Below are positions 124 through 7,394 of a stretch of DNA of 7,828 nucleotides, piece after piece. Position 1 is the first letter of the stretch. The number at the start of each line of letters is the position of its first letter. The DNA lies in the NCBI GenBank assembly GCA_003647385.1, contig QMMT01000074.1, forward strand, positions 1-7,828, in the 5' to 3' direction. Source of the DNA: Deltaproteobacteria bacterium. GTDB lineage: Bacteria > Desulfobacterota > Desulfobacteria > Desulfobacterales > Desulfobacteraceae. Position numbers and translations under genes: made by a program. The notes below the pieces were generated by a model. The model did no database searches. It was not told the DNA's origin and was given only the letters and a program-made list of their open reading frames with translations.

Positions 124-648
124 TTATGCTAAAAAGTCAGGAATTTTTTCAACATTGTCTTCTTCTGCTTCAACACCGGCATACTGTCCTAAAATATCTA
201 TTTTGACAACAACACGCCCTTTTCCTTTATATCTTGTGAATTCTCCCTTTGCCCCTGCCATCGGTCCTTCTAAAATTATCACCGGGTCTCCTTTTTCAAT
301 GCGGATAGTTGTTCCTGTGATCAGATCCGTATTTGCACTTGTCAGGATTTTTAAGGACTCAACCTGTGTTTCAGGCACAGGTACAGGGCCTGCATGATTA
401 CCCAATAGCCTGACAGCCCCAATGGTTTTTAAAATCTTAAGCTGATAAGCAGCATCAAATGTTGATTTGACAAAAATATATCCGGGGAAAAGAGGAACTT
501 CTATCATAAGATTTCTATCTTTTCGTCGGCTTTTTCGTTTGCTTTTGGGTAAAAAAACTTCTATTTTTTTTTTCATAATGTTATTGTAGACCGTCTGCTC
601 AAAGTTGCTTCTTGTCAGAAGGGCAAACCATTTTAATTGATCAATCAT
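124..648 (-). CDS. NusG/RfaH/UpxY-like transcription antitermination protein
   Basis: A 174-residue protein with the two-domain NusG layout. An N-terminal NGN domain (about residues 5-105) opens with KWFALLTRSNFEQ and has the core block PLFPGYIFVK (52-61), the usual NusG signature. A C-terminal KOW domain (about 112-150) has GDPVIILEGPMAG followed by G-x-F. NusG proteins bind the RNA polymerase clamp. Specialised paralogues such as RfaH and UpxY promote transcription of long LPS, capsule or exopolysaccharide operons. The gene lies away from the secE/rplK cluster typical of housekeeping nusG and the sequence is divergent, so a specialised paralogue is favoured. Its ATG shares one base with the lptD stop (TAATG on the minus strand) and there is no good Shine-Dalgarno, which suggests translational coupling to lptD. 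A basic stretch (34-45) lies inside the NGN domain. Codons 26-28 sit in a run of ten A. Confidence 0.85.
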   Translation of the reverse strand: MIDQLKWFALLTRSNFEQTVYNNIMKKKIEVFLPKSKRKSRRKDRNLMIEVPLFPGYIFVKSTFDAAYQLKILKTIGAVRLLGNHAGPVPVPETQVESLKILTSANTDLITGTTIRIEKGDPVIILEGPMAGAKGEFTRYKGKGRVVVKIDILGQYAGVEAEEDNVEKIPDFLA

Positions 649-2870
649 TAGATACCAAACTCTCCGATTCCATGAAGGTTTATAAGAAAGGTGATGCTCT
701 GTTCATCACGTGAATCTGAATAATAGAGATTAAATGTCCAGCAGGATTTAGTAATGGTAACTCCGGCCTTTGTTTCCACGGTTTTATCGTCTTTCAGATT
801 TTTTTCAATGGAGCAATAAGCCATTAATTCATCGGTAAGGCTTATATCAATTTTTGAATACAAAGATTCCGACTCATTTTCTTTAAATCGGTATTCGGTC
901 CGTAATGCATCTCCCCGGTTATCTCGTATTGTATTGCCGATATTCAGCGTGCTAAAATTATTGGCATAGGGAGACCAGGAGAGATCTAAGTCAAGTAAGA
1001 AAAAATTGTGGGGGGAAAATTCCGAATCAAAGGTGATATCTGAAAATGGTCTTGACTCGTTATCATTTTCCTTTCTGATATCATAACTTTGGTAAAGTTT
1101 AATATAGGCAAATTCTCGATAGGTTAATTTTTCTTCTCCCTTTGGGGTCAGCCCTGATTCCCTGGAAATAAAATAATTGGTCAGAGACCATGTCAGAAGA
1201 TTCTTTTCCTCTATCCTGTCTAAACCATCAAAAGAGGGCAGATCATTCTGGATAATATTCGGGGTGAATTCATATTCAAGTTTTGGTGTCAGTTCGTGTT
1301 TGATTTTATCAGCTAATGCATTATTCGGATTATAGATTTTAATCAGTTTGGTGGATAAGTCCGCGCCAATATCATACAACAGTCTTGTCCTGAGACTGTC
1401 GGAATTACCATTAATATCTGTAAAGTCATTTGTATGATATATGGTTTCTCGGACACCAGCCCATGGTTCAAAATTAAAAAAATTACCAACTTTTACCGGC
1501 AGGAAAACTTTGGGATAAATATCTGCCCGCTGCCCGTTTACAAGTGTAAGCGTTGTGTCTTTTCTGTAAAAAGATCGAAACTCGGTATCAAGAGAATAAA
1601 AGAATTTCGAAGGACCGATTTGCTGTTTGGAAGCATTAAATTCAATGCCTGGAAGTGTCTGTAGTGTTGTGTCATCGATATCCTGTTGCCGGGCGGCAAC
1701 ATTATCATACCATAATGCATCAACATTGAATGTATAAGTGGACCATGATTTGTTAATATTCAGCCAGTTTTTTCGGGTAGTGTCATCATACTCATCCAGG
1801 CTGCGCCCAATTTTTTTATCAAAATAGTCCTTGGTATCATCATACCCTGTAAATCCGTCTTTAAATTCAAGAAGGTAATCTTCATCACTTACTATATCGA
1901 TATCCAGCTTGCCTGTAAAACCTTTAGGAAGATCCTGGTTGTGTTTCATCCTGAACCAGTAGCGGTCAGTGTTTGTTCTTTGAGGTGTGCTTTCAAAACT
2001 GTAGTTTTTTGTATTGATTGTTCCATCATCGATCTTCTCATCTTCAAGAACATCGAGAAACATGGAACCCTTTGTCTTGTTATCCAGGACATATCTAAAC
2101 TCAGTTCCTAACTTTGTTCCCCTGTCAGCCATATAGTCAACATAAACCGTTGCATCGGTATTCTTTGACATGGCAATAAAAAGAGGTTGCTCGTATTCAA
2201 ATCCTTTTCTGTCAGAGGATGTGACCCTGGGAAATAAAAGACCTGTCTGGCGTTTGGTATGGACAGGAAATACCAGAAAAGGGCTGTAGAGGGCAGGGAC
2301 TTTTTTTGCCCAGAGAACGGCATGATTTGCAGTCCCATATCCTTCAACAGTGACGTTTACATTTTTCCCCGAAATTTTCCAGTCAGGAAATTCTCCTGCA
2401 CATGACGTGATGGAGCCCTTATCCATACTATAAGAAAATTTACCTGTCTTTCTGATATTTTCACCATGAATATAAAAATTGTCTTCCTGTATAAAAATGG
2501 TGCCGTTATTTATAGTTCCAATCTCAGTTGTAAGATTGATATTCATTGCATTGCAGGCAATGGAATCTTCACCGGATATTAAAAGAACATTCCCTTGAGC
2601 AAACGCATCTTTTGTTTTGTTCGAAAATTCAACATAGTCTGCTTCAAGTCTGGTTTTACCCCCGGTGATCACTACATCGTCCTGGGCAATATAGAGGTCC
2701 CTTTTATTGTCAAAGGTCACTTTCAGTGCCGATATATGCCAGGAGAGTTCTTTGGGATTTTCGGGCAGCGCATTTGCTCTTGCACCCCCTGCGGAGACTG
2801 ATATGAATATGTAAAAAAAAGTAACCGCCACAAAAAACGGCAGAACCTTTTGCCTTAGCGAGCAGAACAT
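648..2870 (-). CDS. lptD: LPS-assembly protein LptD (OstA/Imp)
   Basis: Outer-membrane beta-barrel that, with lipoprotein LptE, inserts lipopolysaccharide into the outer leaflet. I prefer the ATG at 2870, giving 740 residues. It has a GGAAAG upstream and begins with an ideal signal peptide: basic MFCSLRQK, a hydrophobic core, and a likely cleavage after ARA or ANA. A GTG at 2894 would add 8 residues but has no ribosome site. Residues about 45-150 form the periplasmic OstA/LptA-like jellyroll that receives LPS. Next come the LptD blocks SCAGEFPDW, PALYSPFLVFP and RQTGLLFP, then a long barrel rich in alternating aromatic/polar strands ending in HGIGEFGI. The cysteine of SITSC and the single cysteine of SCW near the C-terminus are candidates for the interdomain disulfide; the E. 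coli protein has a CC pair at the latter site. It is divergent from the cysteine synthase fusion and coupled to the downstream NusG-like gene. Confidence 0.93.
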   Translation of the reverse strand: MFCSLRQKVLPFFVAVTFFYIFISVSAGGARANALPENPKELSWHISALKVTFDNKRDLYIAQDDVVITGGKTRLEADYVEFSNKTKDAFAQGNVLLISGEDSIACNAMNINLTTEIGTINNGTIFIQEDNFYIHGENIRKTGKFSYSMDKGSITSCAGEFPDWKISGKNVNVTVEGYGTANHAVLWAKKVPALYSPFLVFPVHTKRQTGLLFPRVTSSDRKGFEYEQPLFIAMSKNTDATVYVDYMADRGTKLGTEFRYVLDNKTKGSMFLDVLEDEKIDDGTINTKNYSFESTPQRTNTDRYWFRMKHNQDLPKGFTGKLDIDIVSDEDYLLEFKDGFTGYDDTKDYFDKKIGRSLDEYDDTTRKNWLNINKSWSTYTFNVDALWYDNVAARQQDIDDTTLQTLPGIEFNASKQQIGPSKFFYSLDTEFRSFYRKDTTLTLVNGQRADIYPKVFLPVKVGNFFNFEPWAGVRETIYHTNDFTDINGNSDSLRTRLLYDIGADLSTKLIKIYNPNNALADKIKHELTPKLEYEFTPNIIQNDLPSFDGLDRIEEKNLLTWSLTNYFISRESGLTPKGEEKLTYREFAYIKLYQSYDIRKENDNESRPFSDITFDSEFSPHNFFLLDLDLSWSPYANNFSTLNIGNTIRDNRGDALRTEYRFKENESESLYSKIDISLTDELMAYCSIEKNLKDDKTVETKAGVTITKSCWTFNLYYSDSRDEQSITFLINLHGIGEFGI

Positions 2871-2909
2871 GTTCTTTCCAGTAAAAAATTGCACAACAAT
2901 TAAAATTAC

Positions 2910-2991: not shown

Positions 2992-5277
2992 ATGACGTTT
3001 TCAATACTAGATTCTATTGGTAATACCCCTATCGTTGAGATAAAAAAGATGAATCCTGTAAAAGGGGTTAAGATCTTTGTCAAACTTGAATATTTGAATC
3101 CGGGTGGTTCTGTTAAAGACCGGCCGGCCCTTTATATGATAAATGCGGCAGAGAAAACCGGTGAATTGACCAAAGATAAAACCGTTATCGAGGCAACCAG
3201 TGGAAACACAGGTATTGGACTTGCCATGATTTGTGCTGTTAAAGGATATAAAATTGCACTTACCATGGCGGAAAATGCAAGTGAAGAACGAAAGAGTATT
3301 CTGCGGGCAAGGGGAGCACAGATTATTTTAACCCCCAGGCGTTTGGGGTCAGACGGTGCTATTGAGGAGGCATACAGGCTTGCACGTGAAAACCCGGATA
3401 AATATTTTCTTGCCGACCAATATAATAATGATGCCAACTGGAAAGCCCATTATCATACGACAGCACCTGAAATCATTGAACAGACCTCTGGCAAGGTCTC
3501 ATCTGTTGTTGCAACCATTGGGACAAGCGGCACGCTCATGGGGCTTTCAAGACGCTTGAAAGAGTATAATGAGGATATCAGGATCGTCTGTGCCGAGCCA
3601 TATCTCGGGCATAAAATTCAGGGTCTTAAGAATATGAAGGAATCTTATACGCCTGAAATTATGGATAAAAACTGTTTTGACGAAAAGATAAATATTGATG
3701 ATGACACCGCGTTTGATATGGCACGCAGACTTGCAGTCAAAGAAGGGCTCTTTGTCGGAATGAGCAGTGGGGCGGCAATGGCTGTGGCCATTGAGGAAGC
3801 TCAAAAGATTAAAAAAGGTCTTATTGTGGTTATCTTCCCGGACAGCGGAGAACGGTATCTGTCTACGAGTCTGTTCTCTGTGGAAAAACATATTGCCCTG
3901 TCACTTTTTAATACATTCTCAAAATCTAAAATTTCATTTGAACCGCTTGAAAAGGAAAAAGTATCAATTTATACATGCGGTCCCACTGTTCATAAAAGAC
4001 TCAATATAGGGCAGCTTAGAAGATATGCATTTACAGATTTACTCATAAGATACATTGAGTATCACCACATAGTTGTCAACCATGTGGTCAACATCACTGA
4101 TTACGATGATAAGACGCTTCAGGGCTCCCAGAAAGAAGGAATGACACTTGACAGGTTCACACAAATTTACATTGATTTATTTAAGAACGATCTTGCAAAA
4201 TTGAATATTCGTTCGGCGGATGCCTATCCAAAAGTATCAGACCATTTTGATGAAATGATAGATGTGGCAACAAGGCTTCAGGAAAAACAGCATGCCTATG
4301 AAAAATTACACTCTCTTTATTTTAATATTGACAGCCTGCCTGAATATGGTGACCTTTCCAGGATCGATCTTGATAAAATAAAATTAGGAGCTACCGTAGA
4401 TCTTGATGAATATGAAAAACTCAACCCAAAGGATTTTACACTGTTGAAACGGGTTCGTCTTTCAGAACTCAAAAGAGGTGTGGGTATTAAGACCCAGTGG
4501 GGTAATGTCCGGCCCTCTCTTCATTTGCAGTGTGCCGCCATTGCTATGAAGTTTTTGGGAGAAACATTTGATATCCAGACGGGTGGTCGGGAGCTAATCT
4601 TTCCCCACCATGAAAACGAAGTTGCCATTGCAAAAGCCTGTAATGGGGCAAATCTTGCAAAGTGCTGGCTGCATTGTGATCCGGTTCATTATGACGGTTC
4701 TCTGTTGGCTCCAGATATTGAAGTACTGACCCTTGAAACCCTTGTAGACCAGGGCTGGGAACTCAAAACAATCCGGTTCTGGCTTATTTCAAATCATTAT
4801 CGGAAAACCTTAATCCTGTCAGAACAATCCCTGAAGCAGGCTCAGTATACACTGGATAAAATTAATCGGTGCCTTTCCACCTTGAGCATCATAAAACATG
4901 GAAGACAATTTGAAGAGATTGATCAATTTATATATGATATAAAATCTACTTTTCTTCAATCCATGGGAGATGATTTAAAAATTTCCGGGGTTATTTCTTC
5001 TTTGCTGGCAAATGTGAAAACCATTAACCGATTGATCAATCAGAACAAAATTGATCCGGATAGTGCCAAAAAACTTTTAAACTGCTTTAAAGACATTGAC
5101 TCAGTCCTTAAAATTTTTTCTTTTGATAAAAAAGAAGAATACTCAGATGAAATCCAGGATCTTATAAGGGAACGTGACCGGGCAAGAGAGCAAAAGGACT
5201 GGAAGCTGGCTGACCAGGTCCGGGAACAGTTAACCAATTTAGGCATCAGCGTTCATGATAAAAGGGTAACACCATGA
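2992..5277 (+). CDS. Cysteine synthase fused to a degenerate cysteinyl-tRNA synthetase-like domain
   Basis: 761 residues in two parts. Residues 1-300 are a PLP-dependent O-acetylserine sulfhydrylase of the CysK/CysM type: PLP lysine K42 in NPGGSVKDR, substrate loop TSGNTG (69-74), phosphate loop GTSGT (177-181) and SGERYLST (285-292). All are intact, so cysteine synthesis is likely active. From residue 305, after almost no linker, comes a full-length CysRS-like region. C329, C514, H539 and E543 match the four zinc ligands that select cysteine, and NITDYDD and a C-terminal AREQKDWKLAD helix are kept. However, HIGH reads NIGQ (338-341), and the KMSKS segment (about 568-577, DGSLLAPDIE) has no lysine. 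The E. coli active-site W205 and H224 align with L510 and Q529. Standard aminoacylation is therefore doubtful. The ATG follows a weak AAAGG 11 bases upstream. Its stop overlaps the next gene by 4 bases. Domain calls are firm; function of the second half is open. Confidence 0.9.
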   Translation: MTFSILDSIGNTPIVEIKKMNPVKGVKIFVKLEYLNPGGSVKDRPALYMINAAEKTGELTKDKTVIEATSGNTGIGLAMICAVKGYKIALTMAENASEERKSILRARGAQIILTPRRLGSDGAIEEAYRLARENPDKYFLADQYNNDANWKAHYHTTAPEIIEQTSGKVSSVVATIGTSGTLMGLSRRLKEYNEDIRIVCAEPYLGHKIQGLKNMKESYTPEIMDKNCFDEKINIDDDTAFDMARRLAVKEGLFVGMSSGAAMAVAIEEAQKIKKGLIVVIFPDSGERYLSTSLFSVEKHIALSLFNTFSKSKISFEPLEKEKVSIYTCGPTVHKRLNIGQLRRYAFTDLLIRYIEYHHIVVNHVVNITDYDDKTLQGSQKEGMTLDRFTQIYIDLFKNDLAKLNIRSADAYPKVSDHFDEMIDVATRLQEKQHAYEKLHSLYFNIDSLPEYGDLSRIDLDKIKLGATVDLDEYEKLNPKDFTLLKRVRLSELKRGVGIKTQWGNVRPSLHLQCAAIAMKFLGETFDIQTGGRELIFPHHENEVAIAKACNGANLAKCWLHCDPVHYDGSLLAPDIEVLTLETLVDQGWELKTIRFWLISNHYRKTLILSEQSLKQAQYTLDKINRCLSTLSIIKHGRQFEEIDQFIYDIKSTFLQSMGDDLKISGVISSLLANVKTINRLINQNKIDPDSAKKLLNCFKDIDSVLKIFSFDKKEEYSDEIQDLIRERDRAREQKDWKLADQVREQLTNLGISVHDKRVTP

Positions 5278-6341: not shown

Positions 6342-6530
6342 ATGGCATTTAATCCAATTGTTGACCATGAAAAATGTGTGGGTTGTGAAGAGTGTGTAGA
6401 CGTATGTCCAGTGGAAGTTTTTGAGATGGAAGATGATAAATCAGTTCCCGTTAATGCTGAAGAATGCATGGGCTGCGAGAGCTGCGTAGAAGTTTGTGAA
6501 GAAGACGCTATTGTAGTTGAAGAAGATTAG
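6342..6530 (+). CDS. 2[4Fe-4S] ferredoxin
   Basis: A 62-residue, very acidic protein with two classic cluster motifs. The first is [12 protein letters not shown] (Cys 12, 15, 18, 22) and the second [12 protein letters not shown] (Cys 42, 45, 48, 52). Each cluster takes three cysteines from one motif and the fourth from the other, as in clostridial-type ferredoxins. It is a soluble low-potential electron carrier for anaerobic oxidoreductases such as pyruvate oxidoreductase, hydrogenases or sulfite-reduction enzymes; the partner cannot be told here. The second motif lacks the proline usually following the last cysteine (it is Glu). The ATG follows a near-perfect AAAGGAGG (6326-6333) with 8-base spacing, which together with an extended -10 promoter suggests high expression. 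A strong hairpin follows the gene. Confidence 0.93.
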
Positions 6531-6632: not shown

Positions 6633-7394
6633 TTAAAATCTCAGTGAAAGACAGCTTAAACCCCCGTCAAGTTTTCTGAATTCAGACACATCCATTTCTA
6701 TAGTTTGATATCCGGCTCTTTTTATCATTTCAGCTGTTTTGGGAAATCCTTTGGGGACCAGTACCTTGTCATTGATCCAGACTGAGTTGGCAGCATAAGA
6801 TTCCTTAAGATCAACTTCCAATATATTGAATTTTTTCAGCCCAGGTTTTGTTAAAAATTCACCAAAGGCAAGCAGGTTATTGTTTTCCAGATAAGAAATT
6901 CCTGTTTTTAAATGAAGAACATTTTCAAGTTTAATGGTGGATGATGTGTACCCATATTTTTTTAATATCTTGTCCAACTGTGATGCACCTTCAATATTTG
7001 TTCGTTTTGACAAGCCTGTAAAATAATGATTTCCCACCATCATGACATCGCCGGCATCAAGCGTACCAGGACTTTGAATTTTTTCCACAGGCCGGTCTAA
7101 TTTTTTGATCTCCTCTGATATTTGAATGGTTTCATCTCTTCTTGACGCAGCACCTGGATTGGTAATGATGGCACATCGAGGCGTAACAAGACAGGCATCC
7201 TCTATAAACGTCGAATCAGGAAAGTTTTCATCCGAATCAAGCACTATTACCTTAAGACCGCATTGTTTGAGTGCCTGAATATAATTTTTATGCTGTGTTA
7301 AGGCAAGATCGAAATCCGGTTTGCCGAGATCAGCGTTGCTTATGCCGTTAATCATATTTCCACAGGGTGTTTTGACTATAGCTGTTGTAAACAA
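6633..7394 (-). CDS. ddaH: Dimethylarginine dimethylaminohydrolase (DDAH) homologue
   Basis: A 253-residue guanidine-modifying enzyme superfamily member that aligns end to end, without obvious gaps, with my recollection of Pseudomonas aeruginosa DDAH (254 residues). DDAH hydrolyses N-omega-methylated arginines to citrulline plus a methylamine. Visible landmarks: FPDSTFIED (58-66), R85/R86, SPGTLDAGD (108-116), SKRTN (129-133), catalytic H161 in LHLKTG, and catalytic nucleophile C248 in GGLSCLSLRF. The Pseudomonas catalytic Glu114 is Asp113 here, as in human DDAH, where Asp occupies this site. The protein has no signal peptide, so it is cytosolic. The start is TTG, fixed by AAGGAG 8 bases upstream and by the family N-terminus; the next ATG (residue 14) would remove conserved sequence. 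The gene follows homoserine dehydrogenase by 12 bases. The natural substrate is not certain, since related enzymes act on other guanidino compounds. Confidence 0.88.
   Translation of the reverse strand: MFTTAIVKTPCGNMINGISNADLGKPDFDLALTQHKNYIQALKQCGLKVIVLDSDENFPDSTFIEDACLVTPRCAIITNPGAASRRDETIQISEEIKKLDRPVEKIQSPGTLDAGDVMMVGNHYFTGLSKRTNIEGASQLDKILKKYGYTSSTIKLENVLHLKTGISYLENNNLLAFGEFLTKPGLKKFNILEVDLKESYAANSVWINDKVLVPKGFPKTAEMIKRAGYQTIEMDVSEFRKLDGGLSCLSLRF

Follow-up and report, generated by a model that had tools for sequence, protein, structure and literature searches.

What does a cysteinyl-tRNA synthetase (CysRS) do once the motifs that bind ATP have gone and the protein has become joined to an enzyme that makes cysteine? 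The question is raised by one gene in a stretch of 7,828 nucleotides (nt) from a Deltaproteobacteria bacterium (GenBank assembly GCA_003647385.1, contig QMMT01000074.1), analysed here as a whole and referred to as the window. It lies on contig G000:C74 of the source genome, G000 (3.07 Mb in 611 contigs, 81% complete). A single uninterrupted frame runs from the ATG at 2992 to the stop at 5277 and encodes 761 amino acids (aa); judged by sequence, its product combines a cysteine synthase with a CysRS paralogue devoid of ATP motifs. The original prediction for this DNA had already described an intact cysteine synthase joined in one frame to a full-length CysRS-like region, and every residue it named lies where it was placed. 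Its coordinates (3904-5274) cover the CysRS-like half and leave out the synthase half (Table 1). Our own reading, which is tentative, is that the CysRS-like half would be a regulatory half that reads tRNA-Cys rather than charging it, and that it would couple cysteine synthesis to Cys-tRNA status.

The fusion gene and the ATP site of its CysRS-like half

The synthase half passes the NCBIfam model TIGR01136 (366.8 bits, cut-off 344.15), and Pfam PALP covers residues 6-284 (247.1 bits). K42, which we take to be the lysine that binds pyridoxal 5'-phosphate (PLP), and S70-G71-N72-T73-G74 of the TSGNTG loop are invariant among 75 aligned fusions. By fold, PLP lysine, loop and family score, this half is a predicted cysteine synthase. 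In the other half, Pfam tRNA-synt_1e matches residues 316-618 (237.5 bits, cut-off 27) and CysS_C scores 35.6 bits (cut-off 23), while the half as a whole falls just below the TIGR00435 cut-off (318.8 vs 340 bits). An AlphaFold2 model built from 75 sequences had a mean predicted local distance difference test (pLDDT) score of 87.9 and a predicted template modelling score (pTM) of 0.64, and was weak at residues 290-297, among other stretches. Foldseek gave template modelling scores by target of 0.89 to the CysRS structure 8qhp and 0.80 to 1u0b, a CysRS-tRNA complex, and CysK/CysM structures were also matched. In the model, the CysRS-like half has a CysRS fold that includes the anticodon domain.

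Table 1. Features of the fusion gene and its downstream neighbour, in window coordinates. Residues in brackets are the equivalents in Escherichia coli CysRS; counts refer to the 177 distinct fusions unless another set is named.
Feature	Position	Strand	Support or remark
Fusion gene, cysteine synthase + CysRS-like half	2992..5277	+	761-aa frame; 177 distinct fusions aligned
Cysteine synthase half, residues 1-295, loop GLKNM, presumed PLP lysine K42	2992..3876	+	TIGR01136, Pfam PALP
K42, presumed PLP lysine	3115..3117	+	invariant in 75 aligned fusions
CysRS-like half, residues 303-757	3898..5262	+	TIGR00435 match; model matches 8qhp and 1u0b CysRS
Zinc ligand C329 (C28)	3976..3978	+	175/177
HIGH position, reads NIGQ (N338-I-G-Q341)	4003..4014	+	H37 kept 49/177, H/N40 kept 9/177
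R344, family-specific arginine (T43)	4021..4023	+	176/177
Zinc ligand C514 (C209)	4531..4533	+	176/177
Zinc ligand H539 (H234)	4606..4608	+	177/177
Zinc ligand E543 (E238)	4618..4620	+	170/177
C562, family-specific cysteine (S257)	4675..4677	+	171/177
KMSKS stretch, reads DGSLLAPDIE, no lysine	4693..4722	+	K269 kept 8/177 fusions vs 78/78 canonical CysRS
Anticodon-binding domain, Pfam CysS_C, residues 716-757	5137..5262	+	
G34 readers R728, R732, W737, D741 (R423, R427, W432, D436)	5173..5214	+	177-fusion alignment
D756 (D451)	5257..5259	+	177/177
Conserved neighbour gene, 317 aa	5274..6227	+	ATGA overlap with the fusion stop

Our alignment combines 177 distinct fusions and 78 canonical CysRS, its columns numbered by E. 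coli CysRS from a reference sequence identical to NP_415059. Many of the 177 being close kin, the counts were repeated on 49 representative fusions of less than 70% identity. At the eight catalytic positions, 101 of the 177 fusions keep no residue and 175 keep at most four, whereas canonical CysRS keep all eight (73 of 78) or seven (5 of 78). Among the representatives, 13 keep none and 47 four or fewer, with K269 present in one, K266 in 22 and H37 in 22. H37, H/N40, K266 and K269 are found together in none of the 177 fusions. The NIGQ and the lysine-free KMSKS segment described in the original prediction are both there, and its view that the latter is the stronger argument holds up (Table 1). 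Of the 78 canonical CysRS, 65 end the HIGH motif with Asn, so that NIGQ by itself is weak evidence, unlike the loss of K269, which is strong evidence for a lost ATP site.

The wider alignment gives a similar picture. Ranked by variability among the representatives, KMSKS columns 266-269 lie at the 69th-92nd percentile and the HIGH columns at the 42nd-73rd. In canonical CysRS, 72 columns show a conservation of 95% or more. The fusions preserve 46 of these at that same level and five partly, and have lost the other 21. Preserved columns include the zinc ligands and, in the anticodon domain, R423, D436, R439 and D451. The lost columns include H37, K266, M267, K269, S270 and N273 of the ATP motifs and, around the cysteine pocket, G204, W205, E208, S210, G227, D229 and Q241, among others. 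As far as these columns tell, constraint is released at the ATP site, at KMSKS above all, and persists at the zinc and anticodon sites.

The KMSKS lysines bear on one further proposal, that the half carries out ATP-independent synthesis of cysteine persulfide. Published reports, in their accessible portions, describe CysRS as a persulfide synthase. In those studies the lysines that reportedly bind PLP belong to the KIIK and KMSKS motifs; the KMSKS lysines are missing from this half, and we regard the proposal as very improbable.

Charging of tRNA-Cys itself would be left to an ordinary CysRS. The original prediction had asked whether the same genome holds a second, canonical cysS with HIGH and KMSKS, and it does: an ordinary CysRS is split over two contig ends that share an identical overlap of 123 nt, the first piece carrying HIGH and the second KMSKS, and is most likely a single gene that the assembly broke. 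Six of six other named fusion-bearing genomes also have a separate CysRS, with open frames of 489-532 aa and 8/8 catalytic residues.

Anticodon readers, zinc pocket and possible regulatory role

In the E. coli complex, G34, the first anticodon nucleotide, is contacted by Arg427, Asp436, Trp432 and Arg423 (PMC12684709; for this and every paper cited below, the accessible portion). In the fusions, R423, R427, D436, R439 and D451 are fixed (177/177, and 49/49 representatives), and position 432 is always aromatic (W 100, F 76, Y 1; likewise in 49/49 representatives). Six of the 43 columns in the C-terminal domain are invariant, and they include three of the four known G34 contacts (p 0.006, relatedness ignored). 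This pattern across the 177 aligned fusions, with ATP motifs that drift while the G34-reading residues stay fixed, is newly seen here.

The zinc ligands that the original prediction had equated with C28, C209, H234 and E238 of E. coli are confirmed as equivalent by the alignment, and they are retained in 45 to 49 of the 49 representatives. Around them the pocket has changed in a consistent way. S204, Q208, T225, I241 and C257 each occur in a fraction of 0.97-0.99 of the 177 fusions, and the representatives carry S204 in 46 cases, Q208 in 45, T225 in 44, R228 in 44, I241 in 48 and C257 in 44. Since these substitutions are themselves conserved, the site looks repurposed rather than rotting, and looks like a site with a new job. 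L510 and Q529 do align with W205 and H224, as had been proposed. Q529, however, is no family feature (position 224 is H in 91, Q in 85 and Y in one of the 177), and although position 205 is Leu in 141 of 177 fusions, Trp is kept in 28 of the 49 representatives. The choice that the original prediction had posed between conserved substitutions and scattered decay in relatives has a divided answer, with scattered changes in the ATP motifs, conserved substitutions at several pocket positions, and retention of the zinc and anticodon residues.

Control of the synthase by the state of tRNA-Cys would be the simplest use of such a half, because it is attached to a cysteine-making enzyme. In the mechanism that we propose, the CysRS-like half would dock tRNA-Cys via the anticodon, and the reshaped zinc pocket would sense whether the tRNA is charged: with Cys-tRNA-Cys a cysteine thiol would reach the zinc, with uncharged tRNA none would. 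The signal would then cross the short linker to the synthase, where uncharged tRNA-Cys would presumably raise cysteine output; the 317-aa partner encoded next door may also have a role in the system. Known control of amino-acid synthesis enzymes works through the free amino acid, or through tRNA charging at the RNA level. If our reading is true, the fusion would let tRNA charging act on amino-acid synthesis directly through a protein, across a large environmental bacterial order. A bolder version, which we consider doubtful, makes it the protein-level counterpart of a T-box: a retired CysRS would read the tRNA-Cys anticodon, test for cysteine on the zinc and set cysteine synthesis by charging, having descended from a make-and-charge ancestor of which the deep fusions L009 and L011 would be near-intact survivors.

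The original prediction had the second half bind cysteine and/or tRNA without charging. A paralogue that has lost its ATP motifs and keeps its anticodon readers agrees with this; the simple sensor of free cysteine, the product, is weakened by the replacement of E208, S210 and D229 in nearly all fusions and of W205 in part. Its further suggestion of a cysteine carrier may still hold. The prediction overlooked that the anticodon readers are retained and that a neighbour gene is conserved; both point to tRNA-Cys as a ligand. A feedback domain for free cysteine, modelled on HisZ, which mediates histidine inhibition (PMC9437257), with tRNA not involved, would profit from the retained zinc ligands, but the same pocket replacements speak against it, and it gives no reason for anticodon readers at 177/177. 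We think it highly unlikely.

The main rival to regulation by tRNA reading is an enzyme acting on Cys-tRNA. The half would be a transferase or hydrolase working on Cys-tRNA-Cys or mischarged tRNA-Cys, with the synthase supplying cysteine and the 317-aa partner in the same pathway. Fixed pocket substitutions, including the new C562, R533 and R344, are what a new active site would lead one to expect; cyclodipeptide synthases, which resemble class I synthetases, use aminoacyl-tRNA (PMC2922099); and the partner gene is conserved. Yet the fusion neighbourhood is one of housekeeping genes (lptD, tmk, surE) and no biosynthetic cluster, and the partner gene persists also where no fusion is adjacent. 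On balance we judge such an enzyme unlikely.

Several observations weigh against the tRNA-reading role as well. The canonical C-terminal tail is mostly lost (G455 is kept in 22/177 and W458 in 5/177 fusions, vs 76/78 and 70/78 canonical CysRS), so anticodon contacts may differ from those of CysRS, and the retained anticodon residues could serve folding. With E208, S210 and D229 replaced in nearly all fusions and W205 in 21/49 representatives, cysteine may not bind as it does in CysRS, and the zinc ligand E238 is lost in 7/177. No contact is predicted between the halves, because the joint is flexible (pLDDT below 50 at residues 290-297, with the pTM of 0.64). A stand-alone cysteine synthase scores over the cut-off in 11 of the 13 genomes searched, so in these genomes no more than part of the cysteine supply would be under the control of the fusion. 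Finally, some genomes of the order show no fusion, and the system is therefore not indispensable.

A CysE-type match was found in 11 of the 13 genomes searched. The complete genome G032 has no cysteine synthase match besides the fusion, which counts in favour of the regulatory reading; no CysE (serine acetyltransferase) was found there either, a pattern hinting at an acceptor other than O-acetylserine. Counting matches over the cut-off, the incomplete source genome likewise has no cysteine synthase besides the fusion and no CysE.

Distribution, ancestry and comparison with known systems

A search of a set of 5.8 billion proteins yielded 7938 relatives out of 7995 candidates scored, and fusions of at least 740 aa make up 118 of the best 120 relatives (query counted). 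Where the fusion records are named, the names are Desulfobacula, Desulfobacter, Desulfobacteraceae and the like. In a contig-database search, six of the 80 loci kept (of 592) are fusions: Desulfobacula, Desulfobacteraceae, Desulfocapsa, Desulfopila and two Deltaproteobacteria bacterium records. The suggestion in the original prediction that similar fusions occur in Desulfobacterota was thus correct, and they are widespread in Desulfobacterota-type records. Annotation is at risk here, as database names vary among cysteine synthase, cysteine--tRNA ligase and cysteinyl-tRNA synthetase.

We also drew 291 genomes from the class, all of them from the source's own order. At least 150 have a full-length match without a stop (from residue 4 or earlier to 756 or later), and the best E-value, an indirect measure, is below 1e-185 in 253, lone halves scoring no better than 7.7e-113. 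Of the 38 genomes with no match better than 1e-185, 14 were inspected. In five (G076, G107, G151, G156 and G272), the CysRS-like half is present as fragments that resemble contig cuts, with stops inside those of G156 and G272, and G274 has a run of N inside the gene; the remaining genomes of the 14 have separate genes only and no fusion.

The ratio of nonsynonymous to synonymous substitution rates (dN/dS) in ten pairs was 0.080-0.174 for the CysRS-like half and 0.045-0.083 for the synthase half, values that indicate purifying selection on both halves. These figures bear on the idea of a vestigial domain retained only for folding of the synthase. Drifting ATP motifs, the fragments with stops in two genomes and a dN/dS that is higher in the CysRS-like half in 10/10 pairs would suit it. 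Set against these are the low ratio itself, invariant anticodon and near-invariant zinc residues, newly fixed pocket residues and the full-length gene in at least 150 genomes, and a vestige seems to us hardly credible.

A CysRS tree of 82 rows, 28 of the 177 fusions included, separates the fused halves by one branch from the canonical CysRS that these bacteria also have (Shimodaira-Hasegawa-like approximate likelihood ratio test, SH-aLRT, 100). Own-order members keep zero to four catalytic residues, L007 keeps 3/8, and L008 and L010 keep 4/8. The deep fusion L011 (4854-7205; HLGN, KMSRS) keeps 7/8, and L009 (2890-5256), also deep, keeps 6/8; HIGH and KMSKS are near-intact in both. Because L011 clusters with L008 and L010 (SH-aLRT 94), the ATP site was probably eroded in more than one branch, the anticodon residues staying. 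The two deep relatives make it probable that a synthetase was fused first and stopped using ATP only afterwards, and we infer that the fused ancestor was a bifunctional protein, perhaps an active one. From their near-intact motifs, L009 and L011 are possibly active bifunctional enzymes today. In the synthase tree, the fused half falls into a cluster with E. coli CysM and four synthases that stand alone, on the opposite side from the housekeeping CysK; E. coli CysM sits on a long branch, and its placement is unsure.

An active fused ancestor, made plausible by L011, L009 and the SH-aLRT of 100 for the fusion branch, is also what a scaffold or channel would call for. Here the half, as a remnant of the bifunctional ancestor, would hold tRNA-Cys and deliver tRNA or newly made cysteine to the regular CysRS. 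The retained anticodon residues fit, but the fixed new pocket residues are left unexplained, and we hold this to be quite unlikely.

Literature searches, which reach few subscription papers, returned no report of a cysteine synthase-CysRS fusion. The accessible portion of a 2022 review of duplicated synthetases gives MshC and CysRS* as the only CysRS paralogues (PMC9437257). With canonical CysRS (TIGR00435; 8qhp, 1u0b) the fused half shares fold, length, zinc ligands and G34 readers; it differs in having lost HIGH and KMSKS, in its replaced pocket, in being joined to a synthase, in scoring below the TIGR00435 cut-off and in coexisting with a CysRS whose motifs are intact. HisZ is a class II protein and a separate subunit, whereas the fused half is class I, covalently attached and still equipped with anticodon readers. 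The likeness to HisZ/HisG, for which we claim analogy only and no HisRS homology, lies in the pairing of an enzyme of amino-acid biosynthesis with a non-adenylating paralogue of the synthetase for that amino acid (PMC9437257). The HisRS-like domain of Gcn2 is a pseudo-synthetase that binds tRNA and controls the enzyme to which it is attached (PMC4335047), although that enzyme is a eukaryotic kinase and the response is to starvation for any amino acid. By analogy, HisZ and Gcn2 are each a precedent for one half of the tRNA-reading idea.

Other relatives match less closely. MshC is a CysRS paralogue outside translation (PMC2922099, PMC5370406), but it is ATP-dependent and tRNA-independent, and the fusion, with its ATP motifs lost, scores 159 bits against a TIGR03447 cut-off of 485.1. 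CysRS*, which works with a selC* tRNA, is a second CysRS-type protein in Desulfobacterales (PMC9437257, PMC7609411); it has no anticodon domain and charges the selC* tRNA (PMC7609411), and the fusion is the reverse, with CysS_C present. SepRS/SepCysS, too, links cysteine synthesis by a PLP enzyme to tRNA-Cys (PMC8762117), with a different PLP enzyme and a different synthetase. SepRS was over the TIGR00470 cut-off in 0/10 genomes searched (best 33.7 vs 380.65 bits), the source genome among them being 81% complete.

Neighbouring genes

At 68 of 76 loci (duplicates included), a gene of the 317-aa family is found no more than 800 nt from the fusion and on its strand; counted by distinct fusions, this holds for 63 of 71. 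The spacing is at most 50 nt at 57 loci, with a 4-base overlap at 23. One further adjacent gene (G202, locus L158) was missed in this frame-based count, and in L011 a family gene stands just upstream of the fusion; none was found near the fusion in L007, L008, L009 or L010. The family is present in 267 of the 291 genomes, and 61 aligned members share the invariant residues P9, D137, R190, W194 and T215. Family and fold searches placed the protein in no known family and gave no clear fold match. At L222, L224, L225, L226 and L230, the gene sits beside tmk, often with surE, and has no adjacent fusion, so the 317-aa locus may predate the fusion or be independent of it.

An LptD relative is encoded on the opposite strand in 52 of the 76 fusion loci. 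In the window, a NusG-like antiterminator of the UpxY family lies beside LptD (124-648 and 648-2894, reverse strand), divergent from the fusion. Beyond the 317-aa gene, a small ferredoxin with two 4Fe-4S motifs is encoded at 6342-6530 and is 97% identical in L006. A dimethylargininase-like protein at 6633-7394 (reverse strand), below its NCBIfam cut-off (360.5 vs 450 bits), adjoins the end of a homoserine dehydrogenase.

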